Positions 2,825 to 61,600 of a stretch of DNA of 64,000 nucleotides are shown piece by piece. The translations under genes and the position numbers were made by a program. Position 1 is the first letter of the stretch; the number at the start of each line of letters is the position of its first letter. Below the pieces are notes generated by a model that was not told the DNA's origin, made no database searches, and saw only the letters and a list, made by a program, of their open reading frames with translations. Source of the stretch: a virus; IMG/VR virus record IMGVR_UViG_3300031521_000040, positions 1 through 64,000 of that record, one strand, 5' to 3'.

Positions 2825-2833
2825 TATAAATAC
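2825..2833 (-). promoter_or_regulatory. late-type motif GTATTTATA before tape measure
   Basis: Read on the minus strand as GTATTTATAC, 14 nt before the tape-measure ATG and just after a hairpin terminator. One of 28 similar sites in the window. Confidence 0.6.
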
Positions 2834-2868
2834 AAAAGACCTAGATTTTAATCATCTAAGTCTTTTTA
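2834..2868 (-). terminator. rho-independent terminator after gp26-like unit
   Basis: On the minus strand AGACTTAGAT and ATCTAGGTCT pair (one G-U) around a 7-nt loop, followed by TTTTG. It separates the gp26-like/frameshift gene from the tape measure, which has its own promoter-like motif just beyond. Confidence 0.7.
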
Positions 2869-2874
2869 TATTAT

Positions 2875-3036
2875 TTATCGTTTTTTATTAGCCCTCTCTT
2901 GCATTTTTTCGATTTCTTCATTCTCTTTTTGAAGTAGATATAAAAAATGTCGTCTTCTATATACAGGTAAATTTTCTATGTATTCTGCCTGAAATTTAGC
3001 ATGTTTGGTTAAGATATATATTTCTTCATCCACCAT
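2875..3036 (-). CDS. -1 frame extension of the gp26-like gene (or small separate ORF)
   Basis: The frame is open from the T9C4 run at 3063-3075 to a TAA at 2875-2877. If translation slips -1 at TTTTTTC it continues the upstream protein with PQHLTGEYKK and then 53 further residues, giving a product of about 361 residues instead of 301. Read alone from the ATG at 3034-3036 it is a 53-residue protein, charged and helical, with a central LPVYRRRHFLYLL and a Glu-rich end. It sits between the gp26-like gene and the tape measure, exactly where lambda places the T part of gpG/gpGT. Known: many tailed phages make a tape-measure chaperone this way. Inference: this gene does the same. Confidence 0.68.
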   Translation of the reverse strand: MVDEEIYILTKHAKFQAEYIENLPVYRRRHFLYLLQKENEEIEKMQERANKKR

Positions 3037-3053
3037 CTTCTTATATTCACCCG

Positions 3054-3959
3054 TTAGGTGTTGGGGAAAAAAAAATCTATTCCAACAGTTAAACTTGCAA
3101 AAAATTTATATCCATCATTGGCTACAAATTCATATGACATGTTTACATTAGGACTTACATCCGATATTTTTCTACGAATAGTATAGGCATCTAATGCAGG
3201 CATAGCATCAACAAATTTATCAATATATGATCTATCCATATTATCATTAATTGATACAATTGATGCTTTTAATTTTAATGTATTATTTTGGCTAAACTCT
3301 TCACCATAAGCTTCTTGAATTGCTTTAGCTTGGTTATCAATGCTAATATCTTCACCAGATGTTAATAATCTAAAAACAACACTTTTTTTACGCATCGGTA
3401 TCTGAACTAAAAAATGTCCTTTAGCATCTGGAAATTCAGTAAGTTCTTTATATGTTAATCTTAGTAGATCAACCTTAGTTGTAAATGGAATACCGCTTCT
3501 AGGGTCAGTTACTTGTACTGTATAATCAGCGCCATAGCTTGAAGTACGTAGAAATAATAATATTGCATTTCTATCGCCAGCCAACAAATCCTTAATTGCA
3601 ACATTAGGCGTTTTTATTTTTCTTCTTAGTAAAATATCTAAAACAGTACCGTTTTCAATTAGCGATGGTGTAGTTAATAAATCTTCATCTTTGGAAGTCA
3701 TATACTCAACAGCTACTTCCGATATACCATTATTATAGAACAAACCTTTTGATGGTAATTTAATAATTTCATATGAAGTCATTAAATCGGGGTCGGTTTC
3801 CTTGGACATGGTTTTTTCAAAATCGTTTTGATTAAACGGTTGTATTTTAGGAATTGAAGCATTTATTACAGGATTTGATTCAGTTTCGGATTTAGATGCG
3901 TTTTTATAGTTGTTTAATGCATCACCTATTGATTCTTTTTTGGGCGTGTTGTTTTCCAT
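3054..3959 (-). CDS. gp26/gp51-type baseplate protein, probable tape-measure chaperone
   Basis: A 301-residue protein with the features of the T4 gp26/gp51 baseplate family: a disordered N-terminus (~1-60), then EIIKLPSKGLFYNNGISEVA (the LPSKG-x-FY start of the domain), followed by TSKDEDLLTTPSLIENGT. In T4 these proteins act in assembly of the central hub; related proteins are thought to escort the tape measure. Its neighbours fit: the next minus-strand genes are a short -1 frame extension and the tape measure. The frame ends at a T9C4 tract, so the normal end (FFFPNT) is reached only without slippage. An AGTATTTATT motif lies 25 nt upstream. The family call is moderately firm and the chaperone role is inferred. 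Confidence 0.72.
   Translation of the reverse strand: MENNTPKKESIGDALNNYKNASKSETESNPVINASIPKIQPFNQNDFEKTMSKETDPDLMTSYEIIKLPSKGLFYNNGISEVAVEYMTSKDEDLLTTPSLIENGTVLDILLRRKIKTPNVAIKDLLAGDRNAILLFLRTSSYGADYTVQVTDPRSGIPFTTKVDLLRLTYKELTEFPDAKGHFLVQIPMRKKSVVFRLLTSGEDISIDNQAKAIQEAYGEEFSQNNTLKLKASIVSINDNMDRSYIDKFVDAMPALDAYTIRRKISDVSPNVNMSYEFVANDGYKFFASLTVGIDFFFPNT
3066..3072 (-). other. candidate -1 ribosomal slippery heptamer TTTTTTC
   Basis: On the minus strand the zero-frame codons are gat ttt ttt ttc ccc aac acc taa. The heptamer T TTT TTC has the X XXY YYZ form for tandem -1 slippage. The -1 frame is then open for 63 codons. A homopolymer sequencing error in T9 or C4 is the main alternative. Confidence 0.62.
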
Positions 3960-3984
3960 ATTATTATAAATTTTTATTATTTTT

Positions 3985-3994
3985 AATAAATACT
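3985..3994 (-). promoter_or_regulatory. late-type motif AGTATTTATT before gp26-like gene
   Basis: Minus-strand AGTATTTATT, 25 nt before the ATG of the gp26-like gene. It differs from the consensus only in the last base. Confidence 0.55.
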
Positions 3995-4092
3995 AATAAA
4001 AAAATTTTGTAATAAATCAAGATTTCATAATATATCTCGTATAATGGTATATGAGCAAGATTTTTTAAATAATAAATATAAATATATAAAAT

Positions 4093-7910: not shown

Positions 7911-8663
7911 ATGATTGAAAACGAAGATAGTGCACCATATTTTGGAGAAAGAGAGGAAAAGGCTGTTTTAGATTATATTAATTCTGATTCCCAAGAAGAA
8001 AAGAATAGAATATATAATGAAATTCTAATAGAACCTTTTCGTAAAATGAAGGAGTCTATTTTAAGGCGCTACCCTATTCATATCGGAAATTATGATATGG
8101 AGGAAGTTGAATCAAATGCATTAACTCATTTGATTGAACATATGATTAAATTTAATCCAGATAAAATTACTAAATCGGGTAATAAAACAAAAGCTTATAG
8201 TTATTGTCAAACAATAATAAGAAATTATTATAAAGATCATAGCAAAAAAAGTTACATGGAGAAAAAGGTTAATCTATGCTTTGATGATTATGCTGAAGAA
8301 ATTAATGAAAGCCTTGATTATAGTTATGAGATAGAGTTAGAAAGCCAACATCATCTTGAAAAGTTGATTAACGGTGTAATCGCAAAAATAGATAATAAAA
8401 TCAGTTCTGATACATCAATGAAGAAAAATGAAATAATTGTTGGCGATGCAATTATTAATGTGCTAAGAAATTGGCATATACTCTTCATGGAAGATAGTCC
8501 TGATGGTAAGTATAACAAAAGAGTTACTAATAAATTTGCAAAAAACAAAATATTGTTCTTCTTAAAGGAACAAACCGAATTATCTACTAAAGAGATTCGA
8601 ATTGCAATTAAGCCGTTTAAGGAAATATATTTTATTGAAAAATTAAATTACTTAGATGATTAA
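7911..8663 (+). CDS. sigma-like factor, candidate late transcription sigma (T4 gp55-like)
   Basis: A 250-residue protein, hydrophilic and helical. Residues ~30-115 resemble the core-binding region 2 of phage late sigma factors: IYNEILIEPFRKMKESILRR, then a DMEEVESNALTHLIEHM helix, FNPDK, and KAYSYCQTIIRNYYKD. T4 gp55 is a short sigma that, with the sliding clamp, directs host RNA polymerase to late promoters. The window has a repeated AGTATTTATA motif before virion genes that would suit such a factor. The gene overlaps the next by 8 nt. The ATG was chosen because the alternative at 7905 is out of frame. The assignment rests on pattern recognition of a divergent family. Confidence 0.6.
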   Translation: MIENEDSAPYFGEREEKAVLDYINSDSQEEKNRIYNEILIEPFRKMKESILRRYPIHIGNYDMEEVESNALTHLIEHMIKFNPDKITKSGNKTKAYSYCQTIIRNYYKDHSKKSYMEKKVNLCFDDYAEEINESLDYSYEIELESQHHLEKLINGVIAKIDNKISSDTSMKKNEIIVGDAIINVLRNWHILFMEDSPDGKYNKRVTNKFAKNKILFFLKEQTELSTKEIRIAIKPFKEIYFIEKLNYLDD

Positions 8664-9207: not shown

Positions 9208-9217
9208 AGTATTTATA
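9208..9217 (+). promoter_or_regulatory. late-type motif AGTATTTATA before baseplate operon
   Basis: Full-consensus AGTATTTATA ends 19 nt before the ATG at 9237 and is the only such motif before the five-gene run to 12481. Confidence 0.65.
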
Positions 9218-9236: not shown

Positions 9237-9632
9237 ATGGCAAGACCTTTAAGAAGAAAATTAAAATTTGATGAAGAAAGTGTAAATAAGCTATTACAGG
9301 AAGTATATGACGATGCATTTAACATAAAAGCTAAAATAGCCAGACTTTTTACTAAATGGGAAACCAAGATAAAGGAAGGTGGTGAAATTGCTGCAATTGG
9401 TGATCAGGTTATTAAACTTATAGCAGCTGAAGCTAAAAATCAAGATCAAAAAATCATGTTGTTGAAATACTTAAAAGAAGTCGTTTTTGATAATAAAAAT
9501 CCTAACAACATTGATGTTACAACAAAGTCTAATGAAAACGATGGAACTATTAGCTCTGAAAAAAAGAGCGAGTTAATGAACTATGTTCGTGAAGAAGTAG
9601 AACGTGCTGAAAGAGAAAAAAACAATAAATAA
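9237..9632 (+). CDS. hypothetical structural-operon protein
   Basis: A 131-residue, highly charged, helical protein. Residues 10-85 look like a compact helical domain; the end (MNYVREEVERAEREKNNK) is a charged helix. It is the first gene after the late-type motif and its stop overlaps the next start by one base. Because the operon ends with an OB-fold spike gene, a baseplate or assembly role is likely, but nothing in the sequence proves it. Confidence 0.75.
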   Translation: MARPLRRKLKFDEESVNKLLQEVYDDAFNIKAKIARLFTKWETKIKEGGEIAAIGDQVIKLIAAEAKNQDQKIMLLKYLKEVVFDNKNPNNIDVTTKSNENDGTISSEKKSELMNYVREEVERAEREKNNK

Positions 9633-11594: not shown

Positions 11595-12481
11595 TGTACG
11601 ACAAACCTATAATACACACATCTAATCCTTACAAACAAGAAGGAAGCTCAACAGAAATCACCAGAACAATTTACTATGGCGAAGTGATATCAATTGATGA
11701 TGCTACCGATGGTGGTATTATAAAAGTACGAATACAAGGTTTGGATAATAAAACAGCAAATGTAGACTTGCCTGCATGTTATCCGTTATTACCTAAATTT
11801 TTTCATTTATATCCACAAATCGGAGAAGTTGTTAGAATCTTTATTGAGAATATAAGATACCCTGAACGAAGTAGATTTTGGATTGGTAGTGTTATATCAC
11901 AACCACAAAAAATAGGCTTAGATTTGATCTATACTGCTTTATCGACCACTAATATAGGTGTTACCTCTCCAGAAAGAGCACCATCGACATATCCAGATGC
12001 TGATGGTGTGTTTCCATTGAAAACAGATGTTGCAATTGTTGGTAAAATTAACACTGATATTATTCTACGCATAAATGAAGTTCATATTCGTGCAGGTAAA
12101 CATGAAAATGATAATATTTTAAAGTTAAATACTAAAAATCCAGCTGAAATTAGTTTAGTGTTTGAAAAAACAAGTGATAGCACCGATTTTCAAAGCAGTG
12201 CTATCATAACCAGCGATAAAATTGCTTTGATATCACATACTGGAAATCCACAATTTAAAGCTGTTCGTGTTGATAGCGCAGAAAGAGAACGAATCTTTGC
12301 TGAAGGTCATCCAATTGCCAGAGGCGATGTATTGGTACAGGCATTAGAAATCATTCGTAATGCATTGATTAATCATATTCACGGCTATTCTGGCTTAGGA
12401 GCAGACAAAACATCAGTCATCAATGACTTAGAAAAATTAAATTTTGAGGGTATCTTACAAAAAAACATTGTAACTAATTAA
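11594..12481 (+). CDS. baseplate spike protein with gp5/VgrG-type OB fold
   Basis: A 295-residue protein. Residues ~25-105 match the OB fold of T4 gp5 and VgrG hubs: TIYYGEVISIDDATDGGIIK, then CYPLLPKFFHLYPQIGEVVR and a strand ending SRFWIGSVIS. The rest is beta-rich and ends in a short helical tail with HIHGYSG. T4 gp5 carries a lysozyme between the OB and the needle; none is visible here, and the large hub gene at 45.6-50.4 kb carries an M23 peptidase instead. It is the last gene of the operon. The next gene has its own host-type promoter. Confidence 0.75.
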   Translation: MYDKPIIHTSNPYKQEGSSTEITRTIYYGEVISIDDATDGGIIKVRIQGLDNKTANVDLPACYPLLPKFFHLYPQIGEVVRIFIENIRYPERSRFWIGSVISQPQKIGLDLIYTALSTTNIGVTSPERAPSTYPDADGVFPLKTDVAIVGKINTDIILRINEVHIRAGKHENDNILKLNTKNPAEISLVFEKTSDSTDFQSSAIITSDKIALISHTGNPQFKAVRVDSAERERIFAEGHPIARGDVLVQALEIIRNALINHIHGYSGLGADKTSVINDLEKLNFEGILQKNIVTN

Positions 12482-12498
12482 TTAAATTAGTATTTTTG
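12467..12498 (+). promoter_or_regulatory. host-type promoter (ATTG-N20-TATTTTTG)
   Basis: ATTG, 20 nt, then TATTTTTG fits the Bacteroidota -33/-7 pattern TTTG/TAnnTTTG with one mismatch at -33. The -7 box ends only 4 nt before the ATG at 12503, so that message may have almost no leader. Confidence 0.5.
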
Positions 12499-12502
12499 CC
12501 CC

Positions 12503-13297
12503 ATGAATATATCAATACCCATACCGCAGGAGTTATTCACTGCTTTTAATGACGTTACGTTTTTTGACGAACCGCATAAGTATTATGTGAATAATAGGGA
12601 ATTGATTTCTGTTACTACATTAATTCACCAATATCAAGGTGATTTTGAATCTGATTATTGGTCTGACTATAAGGCAAAACAGTTTAACCTCAAGCAATAC
12701 CAAATATTACGAGCATGGAACTTTATAAATAAGAAAGGTACTGTTAAAGGTTCTGCTATTCATGATTATGCTGAAAATTTATTTCAAAATAAAAAATATG
12801 AATATCCAAAAAATATCATATTAAAAGAATTTGGATTTGATCCTGTTATAAATGAATACATGAAAACCAAATCACATGTAAACAACTTCTATAACGATGT
12901 ACAAGGTAGATTGATTCCAATTAGAGCCGAATTAGTAATGTATGATAAGGAAACATACATCGGGGGAATGCTCGATATGTTATTCTATAATGTGAAGGCA
13001 AAGGAGTTTCAAATTTGGGATCATAAAACTAATAAGGATTTTACATATGAAGAACCATCAAGACACTTATTAGATGAATTATTTTTACTGGAAGATTGTG
13101 ATTTAGAGGTTTATTCGTTACAACTTGGTTTATATAAGTATATTATAGAGAAAAATGTGCCAATAAAATTAGGAAAATCGTATTTAATATGGTATTCGCA
13201 CAATAATGAAAATTATGAAATAATTGAATGTAAGGATAGAACATATTATGTAAATAAAATCATTGAGAAAAGAATTGAAGAAATTAAAGGTCTTTGA
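12503..13297 (+). CDS. PD-(D/E)XK nuclease (Cas4/RecB-like)
   Basis: A 264-residue nuclease of the RecB/Cas4 exonuclease type. Motifs in order: AIHDYAENLF (His, near residue 88), IGGMLDMLF (Asp, near 155), IWDHKTNKDF (D-x-K, near 172) and QLGLYKYIIE (the Q-x3-Y motif, near 215). Such enzymes resect DNA ends in replication and recombination. The gene has a host-type promoter rather than a late motif, consistent with use during replication. It ends 14 nt inside the convergent LAGLIDADG endonuclease gene. Confidence 0.82.
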   Translation: MNISIPIPQELFTAFNDVTFFDEPHKYYVNNRELISVTTLIHQYQGDFESDYWSDYKAKQFNLKQYQILRAWNFINKKGTVKGSAIHDYAENLFQNKKYEYPKNIILKEFGFDPVINEYMKTKSHVNNFYNDVQGRLIPIRAELVMYDKETYIGGMLDMLFYNVKAKEFQIWDHKTNKDFTYEEPSRHLLDELFLLEDCDLEVYSLQLGLYKYIIEKNVPIKLGKSYLIWYSHNNENYEIIECKDRTYYVNKIIEKRIEEIKGL

Positions 13298-14087
13298 ATT
13301 GTATTCTTTTTCTTAACAATCCCAATTCATATATGTCGTAATCAAAATACAGATAATTTTCGAATTTTAATAAATCTTTTTTATTTGATACTCTTATTTG
13401 TGATGACCTTCCACCTCTACTCATAATAATTCTATATTTAAAATTTTCAATTTTTATTTTTTTGAAAAATTGAATAATGAAAGCCCAATCTTGTTCTGCA
13501 TGTCCAGTAAACGCTATTGAATGATGTCCTTTATTTTTTATTGTTACCGACCCATCCCCATCAAAAAATCCTCTAAACCAATAAACTCTTAAATCATCAG
13601 GTATTTTATTTAAAATTTTTTCAGGAGATTTTAGTTTATTTTTATAATCGTGTTCAATTAAATAATCACCTATTTTTCTATCAGATATCCAATTAGTATT
13701 AATTAATTTTTTCTCATTAGCAAAACTTCCTTTATTTACCGACTGAAATGTATTCCATTTACCTATTTCGTTTAGCGTTTTTAAAAAATATATGTTATCA
13801 TCTGGTTTGGATGAATGTTTTATAATAGGTGTTTTTGCATTGTTATTAGAATATGCAATATGACCGTCAGCCCATAATAATCCTAAAATATATGCAACCT
13901 CTTTTGTTGTAATGTTTTCAAATTGTTCGAAATTAACGTGTCTGTTTTTGTGTAAATTCAATGTAGCCACTTTTGCTTTTATTGAGTACTTTTCCTTGTT
14001 TAACGTACTGACACAGTAGTCAAGACCATGTTTAGGATACTCGTTTTTGATGAATTCTATTTCTTTATCGCTATAAGTATTTTTCAT
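13284..14087 (-). CDS. LAGLIDADG homing endonuclease (free-standing)
   Basis: A 267-residue protein with two LAGLIDADG motifs, YILGLLWADGHIA at ~66-78 and FRGFFDGDGSV at ~171-181, after an N-terminal DNA-binding part (~1-55) whose KEIEFIKNEYPKHGLD segment resembles a small helix-turn-helix. It is monomeric by layout. It sits between the PD-(D/E)XK nuclease and the tail-tube gene, in the minus orientation, downstream of the tail-tube terminator. No intron is evident around it. The 14-nt tail-to-tail overlap with the nuclease gene suggests late insertion. Confidence 0.9.
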   Translation of the reverse strand: MKNTYSDKEIEFIKNEYPKHGLDYCVSTLNKEKYSIKAKVATLNLHKNRHVNFEQFENITTKEVAYILGLLWADGHIAYSNNNAKTPIIKHSSKPDDNIYFLKTLNEIGKWNTFQSVNKGSFANEKKLINTNWISDRKIGDYLIEHDYKNKLKSPEKILNKIPDDLRVYWFRGFFDGDGSVTIKNKGHHSIAFTGHAEQDWAFIIQFFKKIKIENFKYRIIMSRGGRSSQIRVSNKKDLLKFENYLYFDYDIYELGLLRKRIQFKDL

Positions 14088-14123
14088 TAATATTTGTATT
14101 AGTTTCCCATTATTTAATTAATT

Positions 14124-14146
14124 AAAAGTCACTATTAGTGACCTTT
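14124..14146 (-). terminator. hairpin terminator downstream of tail tube gene
   Basis: On the minus strand GTCACT-AAT-AGTGAC is a perfect 6-bp hairpin followed by TTTTAATT. It would end transcripts from the tail-tube gene before the endonuclease gene. Confidence 0.6.
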
Positions 14147-14190
14147 AATGTATTCCGAAGGCTACATTATCATAGCGCAACTCTTATACC

Positions 14191-14206
14191 GTAGCCCGAA
14201 GGTTAC
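14191..14206 (-). other. UUCG-loop hairpin overlapping the tail tube stop codon
   Basis: Minus-strand GTAACC-TTCG-GGCTAC folds on a UUCG tetraloop with one A-C mismatch and includes the stop codon. A related TAGCCTTCGG occurs about 50 nt downstream. It may stabilise the 3' end of the message. Confidence 0.4.
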
Positions 14207-14694
14207 ATATTAAGAATACAGCGATATGGCTGAATTTCTAATGTTATGTTGGTTAGTTCATCTGAACCATAGTCATTATCACCAAAATCAATTGATGTGA
14301 TCATACATTGTTCCAAGAACCATTTTTCAACTTCAACGCCTGTTGGGTCTAATGCTTTTAATAGAATATTTTTAGCATAACCTGCTTTATATCCCATACG
14401 ACCTGAAATTGACTCTGCATGTAAACGAACCCATTCCATAAGTTGCTGTGAGGTAGAAGGACCGATTGGGTCAAGAAATGTAATCGACATTGCTTCCCAA
14501 TTATATCTACCAGCAACATAGTTGCGTTCATTCATATAATCAATTTGTACTGAATTTATTTTCATAGAAGGTCTTTTAAACTTTTGTACCTTCCATACTT
14601 CGATTCCTAATTCATCAGCGAACTCAACAAAGAATCGATTAGTTCTTTTAGGTTCATATGTAAACGGAATTCCACGAATCATTTCTCCTGCCAT
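14203..14694 (-). CDS. gp19: tail tube protein (T4 gp19-like)
   Basis: A 163-residue protein, the same size as T4 gp19. It opens with GEMIRGIPFTYEPKRTNRFF and contains the family features of a KRPSMKINSVQIDYMNERNY loop, then YNWEAMSITFLDPIGPSTSQ and an end rich in strands. It polymerises as hexameric rings around the tape measure to form the inner tail channel. Its message appears to start at a late-type motif 65 nt upstream, a longer leader than usual here, and to end at the hairpins at 14191-14206 and 14124-14146. The sheath gene lies upstream on the same strand, separated by an endonuclease and a repeat-protein gene. Confidence 0.92.
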   Translation of the reverse strand: MAGEMIRGIPFTYEPKRTNRFFVEFADELGIEVWKVQKFKRPSMKINSVQIDYMNERNYVAGRYNWEAMSITFLDPIGPSTSQQLMEWVRLHAESISGRMGYKAGYAKNILLKALDPTGVEVEKWFLEQCMITSIDFGDNDYGSDELTNITLEIQPYRCILNM

Positions 14695-14759
14695 AATATT
14701 TATTATTAAAATAGTGTTATATTTTGCAATTTATTTTTTATCCTTGCATTTTATTTTTA

Positions 14760-14769
14760 TATAAATACT
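14760..14769 (-). promoter_or_regulatory. late-type motif AGTATTTATA before tail tube
   Basis: Minus-strand AGTATTTATA, 65 nt before the tail-tube ATG, the longest leader among these sites. Confidence 0.62.
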
Positions 14770-14792
14770 ATGCGATATAAAAAACAATAACA

Positions 14793-15194: not shown

Positions 15195-15210
15195 AATATT
15201 AATATTTTTA

Positions 15211-15220
15211 TATAAATACT
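15211..15220 (-). promoter_or_regulatory. late-type motif AGTATTTATA before repeat protein
   Basis: Minus-strand AGTATTTATA, 16 nt before the ATG of the acidic repeat protein. Confidence 0.65.
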
Positions 15221-15229
15221 TAAAAACAT

Positions 15230-15254
15230 AAAACCCACCAATTTGGTGGGTTTT
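15230..15254 (-). terminator. palindromic terminator after the endonuclease gene
   Basis: AAAACCCACCA-ATT-TGGTGGGTTTT is a perfect 11-bp stem with T-runs on both strands. It lies 10 nt after the stop of the EDxHD endonuclease gene on the minus strand. Confidence 0.85.
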
Positions 15255-50454: not shown

Positions 50455-51231
50455 TTACAACAAACCTTTTTTTAATTCATGTAATTTAATTATATCGTCT
50501 TCAACATCAGTTTTTTTGTATTTCATTTCTTTTATTTTTTGAATTGTTTTTGAAATGTTGTCCTCAACGTTATTCTTATTCAATTTTTCAAGTATTAATA
50601 AATTTTCGTTTTTATATTCTTCTAACAGCGCTTGTTTTTCTTCATTAGTTGATTTGGTTAGTTTATTAAATAGGCTTCTATCGCTTTCATCCAGTGATTT
50701 GTATTTGCTGTTGAACTTATCAACAGCCATTTCAATAATATCATCATTAATTCCTTCGTGTTCAACGCTTTCAATTAGTTTAGTCTTTGGCTCTTTAATG
50801 TGATTTAATACTAATGTAAATGATTCATGTACTATATCAACATCAATTTCATCGTAATTACACAGTGATTCGGTTATTAGATTATCTATTGCATTATAGA
50901 GAGCAATCTTGCTATTCATTGGTATTGTTGCTTCAGTAATAAACGGTTTTAATTTTTTACGCTCAGCATTAATTTCATCAATAGTGTATACTTCAAATAA
51001 CTTTATTGAATTATCAATATATCGTGATGCTGTTAATTCATTATCAATGAATTTATTTTCTATCCCACTAAAGACTTTGAATTCGAGTTGTAGTATAGGC
51101 GAATTTTTCACTATTGAATAAAAATCAAAAGTTTGCTTTTTAGATTCTCCTAGAAGCTTGCTGTCGAAATAAGATTCTTTCAGTTTATTTGAAATCATGA
51201 AATTAACAATTCCAATGTTGATATTTTTCAT
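50455..51231 (-). CDS. hypothetical head-module protein
   Basis: A 258-residue, mostly helical and acidic protein (VDIVHESFTLVLNHIKEPKT, MAVDKFNSKYKSLDESDRSL, then a C-terminal coiled-coil end KTIQKIKEMKYKK). It is the gene after the portal, where T4 has the prohead core genes 67/68. Composition suits a core or scaffold part. A full-consensus late motif lies 19 nt upstream and the strong palindromic terminator follows immediately. No named family recognised. Confidence 0.72.
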   Translation of the reverse strand: MKNINIGIVNFMISNKLKESYFDSKLLGESKKQTFDFYSIVKNSPILQLEFKVFSGIENKFIDNELTASRYIDNSIKLFEVYTIDEINAERKKLKPFITEATIPMNSKIALYNAIDNLITESLCNYDEIDVDIVHESFTLVLNHIKEPKTKLIESVEHEGINDDIIEMAVDKFNSKYKSLDESDRSLFNKLTKSTNEEKQALLEEYKNENLLILEKLNKNNVEDNISKTIQKIKEMKYKKTDVEDDIIKLHELKKGLL

Positions 51232-51250: not shown

Positions 51251-51260
51251 TATAAATACT
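51251..51260 (-). promoter_or_regulatory. late-type motif AGTATTTATA
   Basis: Minus-strand AGTATTTATA preceded by C, 19 nt before the ATG of the 258-residue head-module gene. Confidence 0.65.
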
Positions 51261-51295: not shown

Positions 51296-53281
51296 TTATG
51301 GAATATCAATATGTGTTATATCGATATCATCGTCATCATTATTTTTTTGTTTATTATTAATTGTATCTGAATTCTGAAGCATCTTATCGATTTCTTTGAT
51401 CATACTATGAGCTTTTATGTTCATATCTTCGTTTGCTTCCATGTTTTCACTAATGATTTTTTTATGTTTAGCTTCATTAGCTCTTTTGGGTTCTAGATTT
51501 CCACCAAATACCATCTTCTCAACATGTTTAGTGAATTCTTCTTCACTTAATCTTCCTTGCATTTCAGCTAATGGTGGTAATTCACCACCACTTGCTTCAC
51601 CACCCACTGGTGGCATTCCACCCGCTATCGGTGGCATTCCACCCACTGCTGGCGGTGGTGTTCCCCCTGCTGGTGGCGCTCCTGCTGCTGGTGGCATTCC
51701 ACCTTGAGCAGTTGCTCCACTTGCTTCACCACCCATTACTAATTCGGGTTGAGCAAATCTTTTATCAATATCAGTAAATAAACCTGATTTCTTTATTGTA
51801 ACTGGTGCATCAGCAAGCTCTTGCATAACAACCTTTTCCATTTTCTGTTGTTTAAGGTCATCAACGATTTCCTTATCACTCATATTAAATATAATACGTT
51901 TTGCATTGGTATGTGACATTGCTGCAATTCCGTTTTCACCACGTGTTAATTCAGTATAAGATTGCGCTTTATCACGTAATAGTTCCGATTTAAGCAATTC
52001 TTGCTGTGTTGATGGATTTGTTAATGTTAACTCAAAGCTGTTTAAATCTTCGTTGCTATAACCTAATAAGTATAAATGTATCATAGCCATTTTATTAAGC
52101 TCCTGAATCATTGCTTGTTGAATACGACTTACTTTTTTTGCAAAACGTATATCATATTGTGCCATGTTTTTACCAGCGCCAGCAGCATCTTGAAAACTTA
52201 AAAATGGTTTAGGAACGCCAAGACCAATAAAAAGATTATCTCTTAAATATTCTATATCTTGAATTGCATCGAGATTACTAGCCCCGGGCAATGTATCAAT
52301 ACCTGTTTGTGAATTGCTATTTCTCATTGGAAGGAAATAATCTTCATCATTCCCCAATATATTAAATCTATAGTCGATTTGTCCATCATTAGGATTCACC
52401 TGACCTACTTTTTTAAATTTAGTTGCAACCTTATAAATATAATCTTCAATATCGTCTTCATCGATATTACCAACATCTATCTTAAACACTTTTTTCTCAC
52501 CAGCACGAACAATACGATAGGTTAACATGGCATCTTCAGCCATTACAAGCTGTCTAAAGACCCTACGAACCTTATTTAATATGGAACTACCATAGGGTAA
52601 GTACTTATCATCCCCAAGTAGTCTAAAATGCGCTATTTCAAAGACGTTGAATTCATCACCTGTCATTCTTTCCTTAAATTTGACTAATGGTTTACCGTTT
52701 TGAATTCTTTCAAATCGTTCAATTTCATAGTTAACCATTTGTTTGACGTGTGTTATACCTTTTTTTCTTTCGCCATATAATAAGACAAAATTATCACCAT
52801 ATTTTACAGTATTTCTAACCCAAAATGGTAAATTAACGTTAACATTAACAATATCATAGAAAAATTCTTCCAATAATGATTTAATACGTTCTTTGTTTGA
52901 ATATATATTAAGCATTTTGCCATTAACACCGATGGTTGTGGCTTCTTCCATGAATAAATCCAAGGCTGAGGATATAATTGGGTAATATTCCATACCCTCA
53001 TAGTCTATGTATGCGGGCAGACGTGCTGCCTCATATTGAAGTGCCTTTTGGAATCCTCTATCTGTTGTACGAAAGAATTTACTTTGAAGTTCTTTCTTTT
53101 GTTGTAATTCTAAGCCTTTTTGATGAATTTCTTCAGGTGTATTACCTTTGATGATAATCTTAGTTTCCTTAGCGGGGGTGGATTGTGATACTGATGGTTG
53201 TGTCTGTTGTCCACTAAAATCACCGAGATTAAAAAATCCATTAAGTTGTTGATATATTGTTCCTTTTTTTTCTTCAGCCAT
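51296..53281 (-). CDS. gp20: portal protein (T4 gp20-like)
   Basis: A 661-residue portal protein; T4 gp20 has 524. Family features include YIDYEGMEYYPIISSALDLF, MEEATTIGVNGKML, FEIAHFRLLGDDKYLPYGSS with ILNKVRRVFRQLVMAEDAML (~235-260), AAGAGKNMAQYDIRFAKKVS and the wing/stem helices. The C-terminal ~130 residues are an extra Gly/Pro-rich piece of GGMPP and PPAGG repeats (~545-600) followed by an acidic helical end. It forms the 12-mer through which DNA is packaged. Two late-type motifs lie upstream. Confidence 0.95.
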   Translation of the reverse strand: MAEEKKGTIYQQLNGFFNLGDFSGQQTQPSVSQSTPAKETKIIIKGNTPEEIHQKGLELQQKKELQSKFFRTTDRGFQKALQYEAARLPAYIDYEGMEYYPIISSALDLFMEEATTIGVNGKMLNIYSNKERIKSLLEEFFYDIVNVNVNLPFWVRNTVKYGDNFVLLYGERKKGITHVKQMVNYEIERFERIQNGKPLVKFKERMTGDEFNVFEIAHFRLLGDDKYLPYGSSILNKVRRVFRQLVMAEDAMLTYRIVRAGEKKVFKIDVGNIDEDDIEDYIYKVATKFKKVGQVNPNDGQIDYRFNILGNDEDYFLPMRNSNSQTGIDTLPGASNLDAIQDIEYLRDNLFIGLGVPKPFLSFQDAAGAGKNMAQYDIRFAKKVSRIQQAMIQELNKMAMIHLYLLGYSNEDLNSFELTLTNPSTQQELLKSELLRDKAQSYTELTRGENGIAAMSHTNAKRIIFNMSDKEIVDDLKQQKMEKVVMQELADAPVTIKKSGLFTDIDKRFAQPELVMGGEASGATAQGGMPPAAGAPPAGGTPPPAVGGMPPIAGGMPPVGGEASGGELPPLAEMQGRLSEEEFTKHVEKMVFGGNLEPKRANEAKHKKIISENMEANEDMNIKAHSMIKEIDKMLQNSDTINNKQKNNDDDDIDITHIDIP

Positions 53282-53304: not shown

Positions 53305-53314
53305 TATAAATACA
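53305..53314 (-). promoter_or_regulatory. late-type motif TGTATTTATA before portal (proximal)
   Basis: Minus-strand TGTATTTATA, 23 nt before the portal ATG. Confidence 0.6.
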
Positions 53315-53333: not shown

Positions 53334-53364
53334 TTTCATATAAATACTATTTGATCTACATTTG
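53334..53364 (+). promoter_or_regulatory. host-type promoter TTTC-N19-TACATTTG
   Basis: TTTC, 19 nt, TACATTTG matches the Bacteroidota pattern with one mismatch. It runs toward the endonuclease gene with 31 nt from the -7 box to the ATG at 53396, which favours that ATG over the TTG at 53351. Confidence 0.55.
53339..53348 (-). promoter_or_regulatory. late-type motif AGTATTTATA before portal (distal)
   Basis: A second, full-consensus minus-strand copy, 57 nt from the portal ATG and overlapping the divergent host-type promoter. Confidence 0.6.
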
Positions 53365-54851: not shown

Positions 54852-56891
54852 TTACTTTTTTTCTTTGATTCCATTATACAGCCAATCATTTACCATATGT
54901 GGATTATATGGTGAATTGCTGTTTGGCGAAATATATGGTTGTGTTCTATCAGCCATTGACCTTTCCTTAACTTGATTAAAACTTATCATAGCGTTGATCA
55001 GTTTTTCACTAAGACTTTTACTTTGTTTAAACCTAACCATATCAAAATTATATGTAAAGAGTCCAATTGCCAATCCCATTATGGAATCATCATGAAATGA
55101 ACGTTTATGGTCTGCAACTCTGTTACCATTAACAGTAACAAATGTTTTTAATTCGTTTAATAATCTTACTGATCTGATTGTTATGTCAGCTAAATTTATT
55201 GCTCTTTGCAATTCTAGCAATACTGATGCACGATTGTTTCCGATAAAGAACCCCGGGATTAAATCCACTGATATTATAGCACCATCAGGCATTGTTTTCT
55301 GTCCTTTTTTGATGTATCCTTGAAGTCTATCTCTTGACGGTTTATGTGTAACTTCTGCATAATGAACGTTTTCATACCCAATTTCAAGTAATTTTTCAAC
55401 TGTTTGAATGCCAATACCTCCTGTTATATCAACAACGCAATATGCATTATTATATCGTTTCCCGAATTGATATGCTATTTCGGATAACATCTGTGGTGTT
55501 ACTTTGCCATAATATTCGGCAACTTGTTCTAACTTATGCCTTTTTATCTTAACATCTTTTGTTTTTCCGTTTTTTGTTATAGACCTGATTTCAATAATTT
55601 CATCAACCTTCATTATGTTAATGGTAGAATTATCCTCACCATGCCCAGCAGATGCATCAATACCCATAATATAGTTTTGATCTGGAATTGCATCTTCCCA
55701 AATCCACATGTTCAAATCAATATATTCTTGACGAATAGGTGTTCTTACTTCAAAATCTTGAATACGTTTAATATATTCTTCAGCAATGAAGTTATCACCA
55801 GAACCAAGGAAACTACATAAAAGTTCTTGTGCGATTGCCTTCATATCTCCATTGGCATCCTTGACTTGTTCTTCAAACCATGGTGAGCTTGCTTCCCAAC
55901 CATCATCCATCATTTGAATTCTTCGTTTAGTATCCCAATTTTCATCAGGTAATCTAATTTCAGTTTCTTTTCCTTTGTTTTTAAGCCATGAAAGATTTTT
56001 ATTATATCTTGGGTCGTTAAACCACCACAACTCAACGGCTTTCCAGTTGTTTTCACCTCTTCTTGCACCATCAAAGTGTTTGTAAAATACTGCATCTAAA
56101 CCAGATGGAGTACTAACCATGATTGCTGCACCACCAGTACCTAATGTTGGTTTAGCTGCTTTCCAAAACTTATCACCCTTTTCTGTCCATGCGGTTTCAT
56201 CCCAAAATATTAAAGTAGGTGTCATACCACGTAGACCTTTAGATGAAAATGCACCTAATCTAGAACCATTATCGTATATTTTTAGCTTTTGAGTATCTTT
56301 AAGATTTTCTTTGGTTTCTCTACCCGTTTTAGGTCTAAGCCATTCAGGACAACCTTCTATAAATAATAAAACATCACTCATGATTTCATCACGTGCTGTT
56401 TCTAATTTATCCGCAACAATAGCTACTTGTCTATTTTCATTAAAACAAATATACCATGCTATATAAGCACACGTTGTTGTTGAAATACCAGCCTGACGAT
56501 ATTTATTGGCAACAACAAATCTATTTTCTCTATAGGATTTAATTAAATCTTTTTGAAAGTCGAATAGGCTAAATGGAACGATTAATCCTGCAGTTCCTTG
56601 TGTTTGGTCAAAGATCGTTAAGTATGTTTCAATGAAGTAAATTGGGTTTATTGCACAACGGACAAATTCTTGTTCTTTTTCTGTTTGTGTTAGTTGAGTA
56701 ACCTTTTTAACAGTACCATCATTGGTTGTGATAATAGGTATTATTTTTCCTGATTTTTTTCTTAATTCTTCGCTTAATTTTCTGGCATCCTCTTTTTGCT
56801 TTTCTCTTTGCGTATTATGAGGTATTATTGGTATATGTTCGGGAAATAAATCATCATCATCAACTTCGGGAACATTTTTATTATCTTTCAT
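54852..56891 (-). CDS. gp17: terminase large subunit (T4 gp17-like)
   Basis: A 679-residue packaging motor. ATPase motifs are an atypical Walker A YRQAGISTTT (131-140), Walker B TLIFWDETAW (226-235) and a coupling motif in MVSTPSGLDA. The RNase-H-like nuclease starts at MGIDASAGHGEDNSTINIMK (~410) with the next acidic site in CVVDITGGIG, and a late DHKRSFHDDSIMGLAIGLF supplying the third. T4 gp17 is 610 residues. It packages and cuts the DNA at the portal. Its late-type motif lies 13 nt upstream. No small terminase subunit was recognised in the window. Confidence 0.96.
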   Translation of the reverse strand: MKDNKNVPEVDDDDLFPEHIPIIPHNTQREKQKEDARKLSEELRKKSGKIIPIITTNDGTVKKVTQLTQTEKEQEFVRCAINPIYFIETYLTIFDQTQGTAGLIVPFSLFDFQKDLIKSYRENRFVVANKYRQAGISTTTCAYIAWYICFNENRQVAIVADKLETARDEIMSDVLLFIEGCPEWLRPKTGRETKENLKDTQKLKIYDNGSRLGAFSSKGLRGMTPTLIFWDETAWTEKGDKFWKAAKPTLGTGGAAIMVSTPSGLDAVFYKHFDGARRGENNWKAVELWWFNDPRYNKNLSWLKNKGKETEIRLPDENWDTKRRIQMMDDGWEASSPWFEEQVKDANGDMKAIAQELLCSFLGSGDNFIAEEYIKRIQDFEVRTPIRQEYIDLNMWIWEDAIPDQNYIMGIDASAGHGEDNSTINIMKVDEIIEIRSITKNGKTKDVKIKRHKLEQVAEYYGKVTPQMLSEIAYQFGKRYNNAYCVVDITGGIGIQTVEKLLEIGYENVHYAEVTHKPSRDRLQGYIKKGQKTMPDGAIISVDLIPGFFIGNNRASVLLELQRAINLADITIRSVRLLNELKTFVTVNGNRVADHKRSFHDDSIMGLAIGLFTYNFDMVRFKQSKSLSEKLINAMISFNQVKERSMADRTQPYISPNSNSPYNPHMVNDWLYNGIKEKK

Positions 56892-56895
56892 TATA

Positions 56896-57087
56896 TTATT
56901 TTATAATAAATACTATAATGTCAGTAAAACCGCAAGGCTCGGCTAATATCTGGATTAGTCGAGCCTCGAAACCTAGTGTTCCGAATAAGGCAACATAGGC
57001 AATTATTAATAATTTAAGCAAAAAACGATGTATATCGTGACACATCGATTTTCGATTTCCTTCCCCCGAATGGTGGGATGAACTCAT
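56896..57087 (-). CDS. small membrane protein in the terminase leader
   Basis: 63 residues. The first 20 are polar with several His/Ser, then a hydrophobic helix FLLKLLIIAYVALFGTLGFE (~23-42) and a second hydrophobic end. It starts 22 nt after a full-consensus late motif and ends 4 nt before the terminase start codon, which supports translation. Its codons also form a 13-bp hairpin. It is not like any protein I recognise, and could instead be a leader RNA that happens to be open. Confidence 0.5.
   Translation of the reverse strand: MSSSHHSGEGNRKSMCHDIHRFLLKLLIIAYVALFGTLGFEARLIQILAEPCGFTDIIVFIIK
56905..56914 (-). promoter_or_regulatory. late-type motif AGTATTTATT before terminase
   Basis: Minus-strand AGTATTTATT, 13 nt before the terminase ATG. 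Confidence 0.58.
56934..56966 (-). other. 13-bp hairpin in the terminase leader region
   Basis: Plus-strand AGGCTCGGCTAAT and ATTAGTCGAGCCT pair with one mismatch around ATCTGG. It is GC-rich in an AT-rich region and lies inside the small ORF. There is no U-run, so it is more likely an RNA structure than a terminator. Confidence 0.6.
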
Positions 57088-57109: not shown

Positions 57110-57119
57110 TATAAATACT
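57110..57119 (-). promoter_or_regulatory. late-type motif AGTATTTATA with overlapping host-type boxes
   Basis: Minus-strand AGTATTTATA, 22 nt before the small ORF. A TATATTTG box follows it, with ATTG 20 nt before that box, so a host-type promoter overlaps. Confidence 0.58.
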
Positions 57120-57129: not shown

Positions 57130-57618
57130 TTATTTAAGAGATATCGATGTTGTTTCAATAAATTCATTATCTCTTAATATGATTTTTCTTGACTCAAGCA
57201 TTTCTTTTATTTTATCTAGTGATGTGCCATAGTGAAATACCAATAATGGTGAATCATCATTATCACTGCTACTAAACATTTTATCATAATCACTGACACC
57301 ATCATCATCATTTATTGATGGAATTTCATATGCTAGTGCATGTATTGTATGATAGCCATGCATATATTCTCTATCAGTAGCTTCATGTAAACAGAATAAA
57401 TCAAACGACTTGGTTTTTAAGCTAAATATGCCATTAACAAAACTTTCTTCTGGTGGAATTGCATGATCACACGCTGGTGATATATCCCAACACCAACCTT
57501 CCATATCAATATTTGTTTCATCTAATGAAAAAATGAATTCATACAAACCTTCGTCTTTAGAGTTATATCCTATTTTCAATACATATATCAGTTTCAATTT
57601 ATCTCCTTCGTATTTCAT
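57130..57618 (-). CDS. conserved phage hypothetical protein
   Basis: A 162-residue protein with a beta-rich first part (DKLKLIYVLKIGYNSKDEGL, YEFIFSLDETNIDMEGWCWD) and a CDHAIPPEES loop. The second half is helical with an acidic DDDGVSDYDK insert. Proteins with the YEFIFSxD...WDxxPA arrangement occur in many large phages without a known role. It is between the terminase and the 884-residue head-type protein, with its own late-type motif 12 nt upstream. Confidence 0.68.
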   Translation of the reverse strand: MKYEGDKLKLIYVLKIGYNSKDEGLYEFIFSLDETNIDMEGWCWDISPACDHAIPPEESFVNGIFSLKTKSFDLFCLHEATDREYMHGYHTIHALAYEIPSINDDDGVSDYDKMFSSSDNDDSPLLVFHYGTSLDKIKEMLESRKIILRDNEFIETTSISLK

Positions 57619-57630: not shown

Positions 57631-57640
57631 AATAAATACT
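57631..57640 (-). promoter_or_regulatory. late-type motif AGTATTTATT
   Basis: Minus-strand AGTATTTATT, 12 nt before the ATG of the 162-residue conserved phage protein. Confidence 0.58.
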
Positions 57641-57701: not shown

Positions 57702-60356
57702 TTATTTCTTCTTCTTAGCTAACGATTCGTATACTTTGAATCTTTCATCAATCATCGAATCAAGCTTTTTGAATGCATCAGATTTCTTGTTTTCATTTAT
57801 GCTTGGTTTTTTGAGTCCAGCTTTTTCTTCAAGACGACCACGTACATATCTTCTAAGTTTTTGCTCACTCTCATTCAAGTTTTCTTCGAGTTCATTTGGT
57901 GTTGGTTGTCTATCGTCTCTGTTCATGTTTAGATCAGCTTTTATTTTAGGTAAAGCATCTTTTAGTTTTCTCAATGCAAATCCATTAATTTCATGGATAC
58001 CGCCATCTACAATATTATATGAATTACGATCAACAGAAATTGTTGCAATTCCATTTGTATTGTTTGCAGCTACATCAAATGCGATACTATCACCATTTTT
58101 ACGGATATTAGTAAAACCTTGATTTTCCAAATACTGTTTCATTTCTGGATTAATGTATCTACCAAAAGTGGTACTTTGTGATTGACCTATTTGAGCAGTT
58201 ACTGGATCGTTATGATTGTTAGGACCGCTATTTGCATTATACTTATCGAGACCCTTCCAACTTGCATTATTTGCTAAACCAGTTGAAATTTCATTAATCA
58301 TGTTCGTTAATGAACCCAATTGTTTTTTGGCTTCAGCTAATTTAATGTTTATCATCTTGTTTTGACCATCAACATTTACATCAATACCAGTTGTTGGAGC
58401 ACCTATTGGTTTAACAACACCTGCGCCTAATGATTGACCAGCGGGAGCAAATTTGATATCATCATTGAATTCTTCAGTATTTTTCATACCATCAGTATTT
58501 TCAACATTCTCCATGCTTTCGATGTTTTCGATATCGTCCTGTTTTTCATCATCTTCATCACCGTCTTCTTTTAACATTGTTTGTGTCTCAACGTTTGCGG
58601 GATCGATGTTTTCTCTTTGGATTTGACTACCAGCTTTAGTACCAGCTAAGCTAGCACCCTTACCTGCAGTCAATTGATTAGTAATACCTCTTAAAATGCC
58701 TTGTACGTTAACTGGTTCTTGACCAGCTTTAACTAATCTAGCATTTAAAGCAGCTACTTGTGCACCTAAATCAGATGCCATTTTTTCTAATTTTTTTACT
58801 TCCCCACCAACTTCTCCTTGATGGTACGTTTGTTGAATACCTTGTGCAGCATCACCAACAGCATTTACACCAGCCTTAATACCACCAGAAACTGCTTGTC
58901 CTGCTTTACTGATTCCAGAACCAACAGCATTTGCTGCGTTAGCACCTGCTTGCCCAACTCTTTGAGCGCCACCTGCAACTGCACTGCCAACTGCTTGACC
59001 AGCATTACTAATACCAGAGCCAATAGCATTTGCACCAGCTTTTAAGCCACCCATTGCTGCTTTTCCTAATGATTTCAAACCACCAAACAATTCATTTAGT
59101 TTAGCTATATTTTCTTCATCAGTACTTTCATTCATTGAATCAACTTGTGGTTGAAGTTTTTCTGCATATTCTTCATGACCGTAATCATTTTTTAATGTGT
59201 TTAATAACTCAGGATTTATCACCTTTATAACTAAAGCAACACCTTCGAGATCACCATCATTCATGCCATCATTATGTGCATTAGCGTAGCCACTGATAAC
59301 GTTACCAACTTCTTCTTCACCACACTCCATTAATGATTCTGCGCTGTTATAACCTCTTGATTCAGCATATCTTGCGAAAGTACCACATTCTGAACACTGT
59401 GCTTCTTCAACGCCTTGTCCTTCTTCGTGATCTTCAACATTCTGTCCTAAATCCTCGATATCTTCAGGGGGTACAATTTTCAATATTAAATTTGCAATAT
59501 CTTTTCTTTCTTCAATTTCAAGTTCAGGAAGCTTATCTTTAAATGCTTGAATAAATGATTTAAGATATGATTGAGTTTGTGATGGTTCTAAATCAGTTTT
59601 TCTGATTGTATTAGTAATTTTACCAATACCCTTTTCTAATTCTCTAATGCTTTCATCTTCACCTTCACCAGCAGCAGACATTTCTTCGCTACCGTCACCA
59701 GCAGGCATTCCTTCTTCGCTACCATCACCAGCAGGCATTCCTTCGCCACCATCGGGTGCGGGCATTCCTTCTTCGCTATCTGGAGCAGGCATTCCTTCAC
59801 CACCATCAGGAGCTGGCATTCCTTCGCCACCGTCACCAGCTGGCATTTCAGTGCCATCAGCTTGTGCAGGCTCTGCTTCATTACCAGCAGCAAATTCAGC
59901 TGAATTAGTTTGATCTTCAGCAGCAGTTGCAGCATCCAAATCACTTAATTTATTTTCTGCGTTGTCGATTTCCTGACCTGCGATATCTTCATTAAGTCTT
60001 TTTTTGCTACCAGTTTTATTTTGTTTCAAAGAACCAGCTTCATTAATTGTATGCATTATCATATTTCTGTTTTTATCAGCTTCTGACAATGATTTATATT
60101 GAAAATTAGTGATGTTAGCTAGTCCACCAATATATGCAAAATCAGATACATCTGGATCAGATTTGATACCTGCTTTTTTAATATAGTAGTTGTGATTTTC
60201 CTTAATGATACCGTAGGCAACACCATCAGCAGCTCTTTTGTAATCAATTAGATTGCCTAGTGTGCGATTTTTTGTTTCCTTAATCGATTTTTTATTAATG
60301 TCAGCTAAACCTCTTAATCTTTCCAAGTAAGCCTCTCTTGATGTTTGATTTTTCAT
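57702..60356 (-). CDS. large low-complexity late protein, probable head-internal or core protein
   Basis: An 884-residue protein. Residues ~1-110 are basic and helical; ~165-240 are tandem EGMPAPDGG/EGMPAGDGSE repeats; ~240-420 are acidic helices with a CSECGTF pair; ~435-520 are Ala/Gly-rich repeats such as AIGSGISNAGQAVGSAV; a C-terminal beta domain (~705-790, QFGRYINPEM-like region and NGIATISVDRNSYNIVDGGI) and a basic helical end follow. It is made late, beside portal and terminase. Such acidic and low-complexity proteins are typical of prohead cores or proteins packaged with DNA. No family name is claimed. Confidence 0.7.
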   Translation of the reverse strand: MKNQTSREAYLERLRGLADINKKSIKETKNRTLGNLIDYKRAADGVAYGIIKENHNYYIKKAGIKSDPDVSDFAYIGGLANITNFQYKSLSEADKNRNMIMHTINEAGSLKQNKTGSKKRLNEDIAGQEIDNAENKLSDLDAATAAEDQTNSAEFAAGNEAEPAQADGTEMPAGDGGEGMPAPDGGEGMPAPDSEEGMPAPDGGEGMPAGDGSEEGMPAGDGSEEMSAAGEGEDESIRELEKGIGKITNTIRKTDLEPSQTQSYLKSFIQAFKDKLPELEIEERKDIANLILKIVPPEDIEDLGQNVEDHEEGQGVEEAQCSECGTFARYAESRGYNSAESLMECGEEEVGNVISGYANAHNDGMNDGDLEGVALVIKVINPELLNTLKNDYGHEEYAEKLQPQVDSMNESTDEENIAKLNELFGGLKSLGKAAMGGLKAGANAIGSGISNAGQAVGSAVAGGAQRVGQAGANAANAVGSGISKAGQAVSGGIKAGVNAVGDAAQGIQQTYHQGEVGGEVKKLEKMASDLGAQVAALNARLVKAGQEPVNVQGILRGITNQLTAGKGASLAGTKAGSQIQRENIDPANVETQTMLKEDGDEDDEKQDDIENIESMENVENTDGMKNTEEFNDDIKFAPAGQSLGAGVVKPIGAPTTGIDVNVDGQNKMINIKLAEAKKQLGSLTNMINEISTGLANNASWKGLDKYNANSGPNNHNDPVTAQIGQSQSTTFGRYINPEMKQYLENQGFTNIRKNGDSIAFDVAANNTNGIATISVDRNSYNIVDGGIHEINGFALRKLKDALPKIKADLNMNRDDRQPTPNELEENLNESEQKLRRYVRGRLEEKAGLKKPSINENKKSDAFKKLDSMIDERFKVYESLAKKKK
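59695..59860. repeat. imperfect GMPA(P/G)DGG(E) coding repeats
   Basis: Six to seven units of about 24-30 bp encode EGMPAPDGG, EGMPAPDSE and EGMPAGDGSE variants in the 884-residue protein. They are in-frame and not identical at DNA level. Confidence 0.8.
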
Positions 60357-60399
60357 TTTTATATTTTTAGTGTTTTTTGTTATTTATATTACATTTTTT

Positions 60400-60409
60400 T
60401 ATAAATACT
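60400..60409 (-). promoter_or_regulatory. late-type motif AGTATTTATA
   Basis: Minus-strand AGTATTTATA, 43 nt before the ATG of the 884-residue gene. Confidence 0.62.
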
Positions 60410-60435
60410 TAATTGAGAGCAAAAAAATGTTTTAA

Positions 60436-60684
60436 CTATATTATTTCATAATTTTCATTTATTATCTTATGCTTAGTAAGCATTTCGAAAACCTTTGGCG
60501 TAATAAGCATTTTCCTTCTATAATTATCAATCACTGATTGATTTGCTTTTTCATGTGATACATTTTCATTTAGAAGTTTTGTATTCATATGTAAATGTTC
60601 TAATATGTCATAGAAAATTTTATTTGCTTTTCTTCTATCAACATACTCAACTAACTGCTCTTTTTTAACTATAAATTTTTTCAT
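60436..60684 (-). CDS. small hypothetical late protein
   Basis: 82 residues, basic and helical (FIVKKEQLVEYVDRRKANKI, then YRRKMLITPKVFEMLTKHKI). It starts 2 nt after the nucleotidyltransferase-like gene and so is probably co-translated with it. No family recognised. Confidence 0.7.
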   Translation of the reverse strand: MKKFIVKKEQLVEYVDRRKANKIFYDILEHLHMNTKLLNENVSHEKANQSVIDNYRRKMLITPKVFEMLTKHKIINENYEII

Positions 60685-60686
60685 AA

Positions 60687-61559
60687 TTATATCATGAATT
60701 CGTTTAAACTTAATTCGTTTTTTAAGTAATTATTCTTTAATGCAACCAATTTCTCAAGGTATCCACTGTTTCTTAATATTTTAAAAACCAGATTTTCTAC
60801 TGAATATTCACCCTTTTTATCTAATCCTGATTGCCTATACTTTTTTATTTTATTTTTAAGCTGATCAATTTTAATTAAAAAATTAGCTTCATCTTTATTC
60901 GTTTCTAAATCATCAATCGTATTCATAATATCAGCCGATTTTAATTGCACATCAGCAGTATCAATATTAACGATTTTTTTTAACGGTTTGCGAACCCAAT
61001 CATTTTTCATGATTGAATATGTTCCTGATGAATGATGTGGTTCATCGATATCTTGAAAATATAACTCAACATCAAATCCCTTTACTTGAATAGGTAATTT
61101 ATCAGACCATAATTGCTTTTTAAGCTTCAAAAAGTCGCCCACAAATTCTTTGTTTTCAGATATTTGTGAAAAATCGAGTACTATATGTATATCTATATCT
61201 GAATTTTCATTATAATTATAATTTGCCATACTGCCTGTAAATATAATATCCTTAAACTTTAAATTTTCTACATCTGAAAATTCAATAAATCTTTTAGCAT
61301 TTAATAATAATATTTTTCTTATTTCAGGCTTTAGTATTTCGTTTTTATCCCATATTAGCGGACACAGCGTATCGTGCATCTGAATTGACGATACATCAAC
61401 ACTATCAGGCTCAATAACCTCTTTTAGTAAATCAGATATATTGGTTTTAGCCCAATACTTGGATGACCAAAATCTTGGCATCTTAGTGTTTTGCTCGTTA
61501 TTACCATTGATTGAATTACTTGATTGAACGTCACTTTTCTCCACGTTAATAATTTTCAT
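60687..61559 (-). CDS. nucleotidyltransferase-fold protein
   Basis: A 290-residue protein with the Pol-beta-type signature GSMANYNYNENSDIDIHIVL (Gly109-Ser110, Asp121, Asp123) after a helical start, and a third acidic strand in GFDVELYFQD. A conserved EPHHSSGTYSIMKNDWVRKP follows. Proteins of this layout occur in large phages, with unknown substrate. Predicted reaction is transfer of a nucleotide to RNA, protein or a small molecule. The late-type motif abuts the first ATG; a second ATG at 61481 (MPRFWSSKYWAKTN) is a possible start. A 26-residue low-complexity N-terminus supports that doubt. Confidence 0.75.
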   Translation of the reverse strand: MKIINVEKSDVQSSNSINGNNEQNTKMPRFWSSKYWAKTNISDLLKEVIEPDSVDVSSIQMHDTLCPLIWDKNEILKPEIRKILLLNAKRFIEFSDVENLKFKDIIFTGSMANYNYNENSDIDIHIVLDFSQISENKEFVGDFLKLKKQLWSDKLPIQVKGFDVELYFQDIDEPHHSSGTYSIMKNDWVRKPLKKIVNIDTADVQLKSADIMNTIDDLETNKDEANFLIKIDQLKNKIKKYRQSGLDKKGEYSVENLVFKILRNSGYLEKLVALKNNYLKNELSLNEFMI

Positions 61560-61568
61560 ATAAATACA
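61559..61568 (-). promoter_or_regulatory. late-type motif TGTATTTATA abutting an ATG
   Basis: Minus-strand TGTATTTATATG; the motif's last base is the A of the first ATG. If it is a promoter, translation must begin downstream, for example at 61481. Confidence 0.42.
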
Positions 61569-61590
61569 TAATTATTAATTAAAGTAAAGG

Positions 61591-61600
61591 AGTATTTATT
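61591..61600 (+). promoter_or_regulatory. late-type motif AGTATTTATT before LamG-like gene
   Basis: AGTATTTATT ending 16 nt before the ATG at 61617. Confidence 0.58.

Follow-up and report, generated by a model that had tools for sequence, protein, structure and literature searches.

What is the ten-letter motif that recurs ahead of the virion genes in this stretch of viral DNA (64 kb, called the window below), in which direction is it read, and by what? We are fairly confident that it is the -10-type element of a phage-specific promoter of virion genes, probably a late one, and that its likely reader is a sigma-like protein of 250 aa encoded in the window itself, at 7911–8663 on the (+) strand.

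The window comes from a virus record of 83,181 bp and belongs to a clade of T4-like (gp23-capsid) jumbo phages. Its virion proteins (a gp23-like capsid, portal, sheath, tube, protease and terminase) are of T4-like type, and 80 close relatives of the capsid protein were retained from viral contigs, several of them 250–365 kb long. The nearest named relatives by capsid, at 31%–40% identity, are LR756508 (an uncultured 484-kb phage), the Flavobacterium immuto phages and Microcystis phage Mel-JY01; 20 kb of the window, used as query for near-identical sequence in the phage collection, gave no match. The host of the clade is probably Bacteroidota, because the capsid gene is carried on three contigs of Bacteroidota genomes and because genes are preceded, in the sense direction, by more TTG-N18-22-TAnnTTTG promoters, the Bacteroidota housekeeping form, than chance predicts (25–42 in four relatives versus 3–5 in shuffled sequence). 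Mel-JY01 (PP395634.1) is annotated as a Microcystis phage; 19 of its genes have Bacteroidota-type TTG/TAnnTTTG promoters, versus 1.4 in shuffled sequence, and its stated host may be wrong.

The exact motif GTATTTAT occurs 27 times in the window, with two further (A)CTATTTATA variants (ACTATTTATA). All sites but one, an intragenic copy at 21708, lie near a start codon and on the gene's own strand, at distances of 8 to about 75 nt that cluster near 22–28. Within 100-nt upstream regions, 25 sense copies of GTATTTAT are seen, whereas 1,000 dinucleotide shuffles yield 0.59 on average and never more than 6; AGTATTTATA is seen 14 times versus 0.09, and GTATTTAT is the most enriched upstream 8-mer. 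An earlier note on this DNA had counted 28 sense sites, mostly 8–65 nt before start codons, and proposed motif discovery against a shuffled background; its list was essentially right, and the enrichment bears it out. Gene starts here are longest-ORF, ATG-only calls. Enrichment of 8-mers proved more reliable than a home-made EM motif search, which when seeded elsewhere often drifted to A-rich leaders and had no success for one relative (G003). E. coli-type sigma-70 promoters do not rise above shuffles (120 versus 124 and 137 versus 137).

Genes downstream of the motif include much of the virion set. On the (-) strand, sites precede the baseplate-hub-like gene 3054–3959 (AGTATTTATT, 3985–3994), the tail tube gene 14203–14694 (14760–14769), the tail sheath gene 16965–19757 (19821–19830), the gene in the scaffold position, 42578–44071 (44108–44117), the head protease gene 44190–44891 (the variant ACTATTTATA, 44907–44916), the portal gene 51296–53281, which has both TGTATTTATA at 53305–53314 and a second site, AGTATTTATA, at 53339–53348, and the terminase large subunit gene 54852–56891 (AGTATTTATT, 56905–56914). 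The major capsid gene (40866–42551) has no site of its own; 26 nt separate it from 42578–44071, and it would be served by read-through. Among the virion genes that the earlier note had placed behind the motif, the tube, sheath, portal, terminase and scaffold-position genes stand as given; the tape measure site (CGTATTTATA, 45557–45566, (+)) is also real but falls inside the longest ORF, and the true start of that gene is probably the in-frame ATG at 45581, 23 nt downstream of the site as counted from 45558.

Other (-) strand sites precede genes 288–2810 (TGTATTTATA, 2825–2834, 23 nt before the gene, with the motif in five of five orthologues), 14793–15194 (15211–15220), 24117–24881 (24895–24904), 29620–30432 (30446–30455), 33959–35077 (35097–35106), 50455–51231 (51251–51260), 56896–57087 (57110–57119), 57130–57618 (AGTATTTATT, 57631–57640) and 57702–60356 (60400–60409), and one stands at the start of 60687–61559 (TGTATTTATA, 61559–61568). 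The (+) strand equivalents precede 9237–9632 (AGTATTTATA, 9208–9217), 20066–22171 (20038–20047), 22197–23351 (GGTATTTATA, 22183–22192) and 61617–63626 (AGTATTTATT, 61591–61600). Three homing endonuclease genes are also served, 15265–16839 (16884–16893, (-)), 30551–31594 (30533–30542, (+)) and one with its ATG at 32835 (AGTATTTATG, 32811–32820, (+)), as is a polynucleotide-kinase-like gene, 32153–32689 (32742–32751, (-)). Terminators lie ahead of a few of the sites, with no general rule.

No motif is found upstream of phoH (4093), two dUTPase genes (26008 and 27141), thyA (27948) or the helicase gene (35618), an absence that the earlier note had also reported; the mazG gene on the note's list was not identified. 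The two dUTPase-like genes (26008–26460 and 27141–27566) are different from each other, lie close together and adjoin the thymidylate synthase gene. The helicase gene (35618–38164) has a LAGLIDADG-homing-endonuclease-like match at residues 319–387, between its helicase matches, which is perhaps an intein.

The motif is conserved well beyond the window. In four relatives (299–365 kb; G005, G016, G003 and G006, all whole), GTATTTAT is again the most enriched upstream word, standing before 85, 66, 57 and 75 genes, respectively, compared with 3–5 expected and 10–19 in antisense, although counts across these genomes are not independent, since the relatives share ancestry. Of the 201 orthologue groups, 47 have the motif in at least 60% of their members; hub, tube, sheath, portal, terminase and protease are among these, as are many unknown ones. 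Among the distant named phages, immuto has TATTTATA, with A or C ahead, before terminase, gp20, tail sheath and other virion-region genes, and in Mel-JY01 TATTTATA, mostly with T behind, precedes the tail tube gene and the genes lying after terminase, after capsid and before sheath, respectively; in the 150 kb of LR756508 that were read, no TATTTATA class is visible. Overall the motif stands before virion genes and not before replication or nucleotide genes, with exceptions in a tRNA-nucleotidyltransferase-like gene and a DNA-repair-exonuclease-like gene, which also bear it. One motif-served gene of G003 (12430–17862) encodes a 1,810-aa protein with both tRNA-nucleotidyltransferase-like and RNA-ligase-like matches. 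No description of the motif as a phage promoter was found in the open-access literature searched.

A candidate reader emerged from a search for gp55, the T4 late sigma. The PHROG gp55 profile phrog_234 matched short (~110 aa) gp55-like proteins in three relatives and, weakly, a protein of immuto; a search for a gp55 orthologue with phrog_12791 returned nothing. Comparing the short proteins with all genes led to ORF 7911–8663. Orthologues of it occur in G003, G005, G006 and G016, and related proteins, mostly 60%–83% identical, at 74 viral loci; its matches in the phage collection are confined to immuto (hypothetical protein QQO92070.1), LR756508 and Mel-JY01. By profile alignment, residues 13–118 match the T4 gp55 family with a score of 34.9 (E 1.6e-4), compared with a mean of 12.5 and a maximum of 22.3 for 40 column-shuffled controls and 14.3 for the reversed sequence. 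The ordinary profile search is weaker (Pfam Sigma70_r2, E 0.19), and a PDB sequence search gave nothing relevant. Because region 2 of the ECF sigmas of these phages is matched about equally well, the case for sigma homology is stronger than that for a particular link with gp55. In a fold search with the predicted model, which is helical throughout (pLDDT 75, pTM 0.42), sigma factors make up the best PDB match and many of the top viral matches, several being T4-type late sigmas; the E-values are all weak (above 0.001). In T4 gp55, A-12 and A-8 of the promoter sit in deep pockets (PMC7892883). In our own reading of the alignment, gp55 Y97, which stacks on A-12, aligns with an invariant Y98 in the 7911–8663 protein, and gp55 E70 with a nearly invariant E65. 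Neither sigma region 4 nor gp33 finds profile support as the identity of the C-terminal domain. On sequence grounds, we regard the 7911–8663 product as a conserved gp55-like sigma protein, apparently a distant cousin of the T4 late sigma that ordinary profile search detects weakly; this identification is new here. The very short gp55-like protein from which this search set out comprises region 2 only; it is encoded at G005 23376–23702, G006 279582–279923 and G016 98359–98703, and 3 of the 18 viral records have it.

A second promoter class, TTGTAACA-N16-CGTATA, is found in the relatives, with 30–60 sites per genome at a spacing of 16 versus 3–4 at any other. It lies upstream of the genes for rIIA, rIIB, DNA ligase and a DNA-polymerase-like protein. 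Most sites in the record that contains the window have a spacing of 17, as in TTGTAACA-N17-CGTATA at 32698–32727 on the (-) strand, before the polynucleotide-kinase-like gene. Across the four whole genomes, both classes precede the same gene 3 times, versus about 24 expected. Most large relatives encode two ECF-type sigmas (G003 185699 and 294176; G005 62539 and 292628; G006 174168 and 313189; G016 30929 and 145850). Two that were tested have region 2 and region-4-like matches, and one gene of the pair has a host-type promoter about 1 kb upstream in four of four genomes. The second class is probably read by these ECF-type sigmas. In immuto and Mel-JY01 neither a recognisable ECF sigma nor a strong second-class spacing peak is seen; both have TATTTATA together with a protein of the 7911–8663 type. 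Since these distant phages have the latter pair alone, we assign GTAAC/CGTATA to the ECF sigmas and TATTTATA to the gp55-like protein, a pairing to which LR756508, with the sigma-like protein and no TATTTATA class seen in 150 kb, is the exception.

That exception is one reason to consider that the motif is a virion-gene promoter with a different reader, namely an ECF-type sigma, the short gp55-like protein or a host sigma, an option we rate as clearly less likely though worth keeping in view. Most large relatives encode ECF-type sigmas with regions 2 and 4, and for two such sigmas a single bipartite class was detected; however, immuto and Mel-JY01 have the motif with no recognisable ECF sigma, TTGTAACA-N16-CGTATA is the better candidate target, and the late motif lacks the bipartite -35/-10 form with fixed spacing of ECF promoters. 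Against the short gp55-like protein speaks its presence in only the three records mentioned. As for a host sigma, TATTTATA fits six of the eight positions of the Bacteroidota -7 element TAHHTTTG, and resembles the housekeeping promoter in place and AT content, but that promoter (TTG ... TAHHTTTG) carries TTG at -33 and an almost invariant G at -5 (PMC6847099), and the late motif has neither the upstream TTG block nor G at its last position. These phages also carry promoters of the host housekeeping form, one example being conserved ahead of the exonuclease group of 12503–13297.

Returning to the 7911–8663 protein as the reader, its place could be the last in a three-step relay, in which host TAHHTTTG promoters are followed by ECF-type sigmas at TTGTAACA-N16-CGTATA and then by the gp55-like sigma, with its new C-terminal domain, at TATTTATA, with no activation by a sliding clamp. 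This fuller scheme is tentative, and we would put it at somewhat below even. Profiles of the gp45 clamp (PF02916 and phrog_223) gave no match, although a diverged clamp could escape them, and the gp33 profile phrog_254 gave two weak, isolated matches, neither convincing.

The sites themselves indicate how the motif is read. In gaps between genes on the same strand, 236 copies point towards the gene and 5 away from it; the motif is about twice as dense in divergent gaps and scarce in convergent ones. Counted from the motif G over 326 pooled sites chosen for exact GTATTTAT, A is found at +12 in 89% and at +13 in 83%, and no -35 box is conserved. Because translation in Bacteroidota shows a preference for A at positions -12/-13 relative to the start codon (PMC6847099), which could mimic such a pair, sites were split by distance to the ATG; where this lies at least 36 nt away, the A pair still stands at 82% and 80%, and in 110 intragenic copies it is absent (39% and 34%). 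An A pair that stays fixed while the ATG is distant is what a fixed start site would look like. Orientation, the A pair and the lack of a -35 box together argue that the promoter is read towards the gene. In that direction the motif reads AGTATTTATA. It would act as a -10-type element with no -35 partner, the 7911–8663 protein would associate with the core of the host RNA polymerase to melt TATTTATA, and transcription would begin about 12–13 nt after the G, at the conserved A pair, with leaders often of only ~10 nt. The earlier note's call of a late promoter holds for the promoter part, given clade-wide conservation, the 236:5 orientation, the A pair and near exclusion from the second class; we infer late timing from the genes served.

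Could the motif act instead in RNA, as a translation or mRNA-stability signal in the leaders of virion genes? Pooled distances to the start codon do have a mode at 22–25 nt, and Bacteroidota use A-rich leaders (PMC6847099), but those distances cover 8 to 90 nt, the A pair is fixed relative to the motif and not to the ATG, the motif is rare before genes of the second class, and at least one site (15211–15220) has a terminator-like hairpin just upstream (15254–15230), all of which make this reading improbable. Least credible of all is the idea, prompted by the earlier note's remark on the reverse complement, of a T4 late promoter, TATAAATA, used in the opposite sense and firing away from the virion gene, for although the reverse complement of AGTATTTATA is TATAAATACT, with the exact T4 core inside, such a resemblance is cheap when TATTTATA nearly equals its own reverse complement, nearly all transcripts from same-strand gaps would be antisense (236 versus 5, the ground on which we reject the idea), the A pair is conserved on the gene side only, and GTATTTATA reads towards the gene, matching TATAAATA at six of eight positions in the same sense.

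If the motif is indeed a virion-gene promoter, a large and mostly uncultured clade of jumbo phages gains a readable late promoter with a candidate sigma, and some help in telling which of its many unknown genes are virion genes. The motif would also be a natural case of T4-style late control with a changed core, seemingly without a recognisable clamp and co-activator, in which promoter recognition and clamp activation could be studied separately.

Among known systems, the T4 late promoters (TATAAATA; gp55, gp33 and gp45) are the obvious comparison. They too are a single AT-rich 8-bp -10-type element with no -35 box, serve virion genes on both strands and are read by a protein whose region 2 is related to that of our candidate, and the six shared letters include A-12 and A-8. 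Unlike T4, the core here is TATTTATA, usually with G ahead, the candidate reader has 250 aa with an unmatched C-terminal domain, and no gp45 homologue and no convincing gp33 homologue are detected. Variants of the T4 core before virion genes have been described in S-PM2 (NATAAATA) and Aeh1 (a/gC at -13/-12) (PMC2984593, PMC2988020); those keep ATAAATA or its 3' part, whereas here AA at -10/-9 has become TT. In phiEco32 and 7-11, phage-encoded sigmas redirect the host polymerase to structural genes at promoters of the form TAATGTATA (PMC4331800). These phages are unrelated and the late motif here is of another form, but they likewise use a phage sigma for structural genes, and the core of TAATGTATA resembles the CGTATA of the second class.
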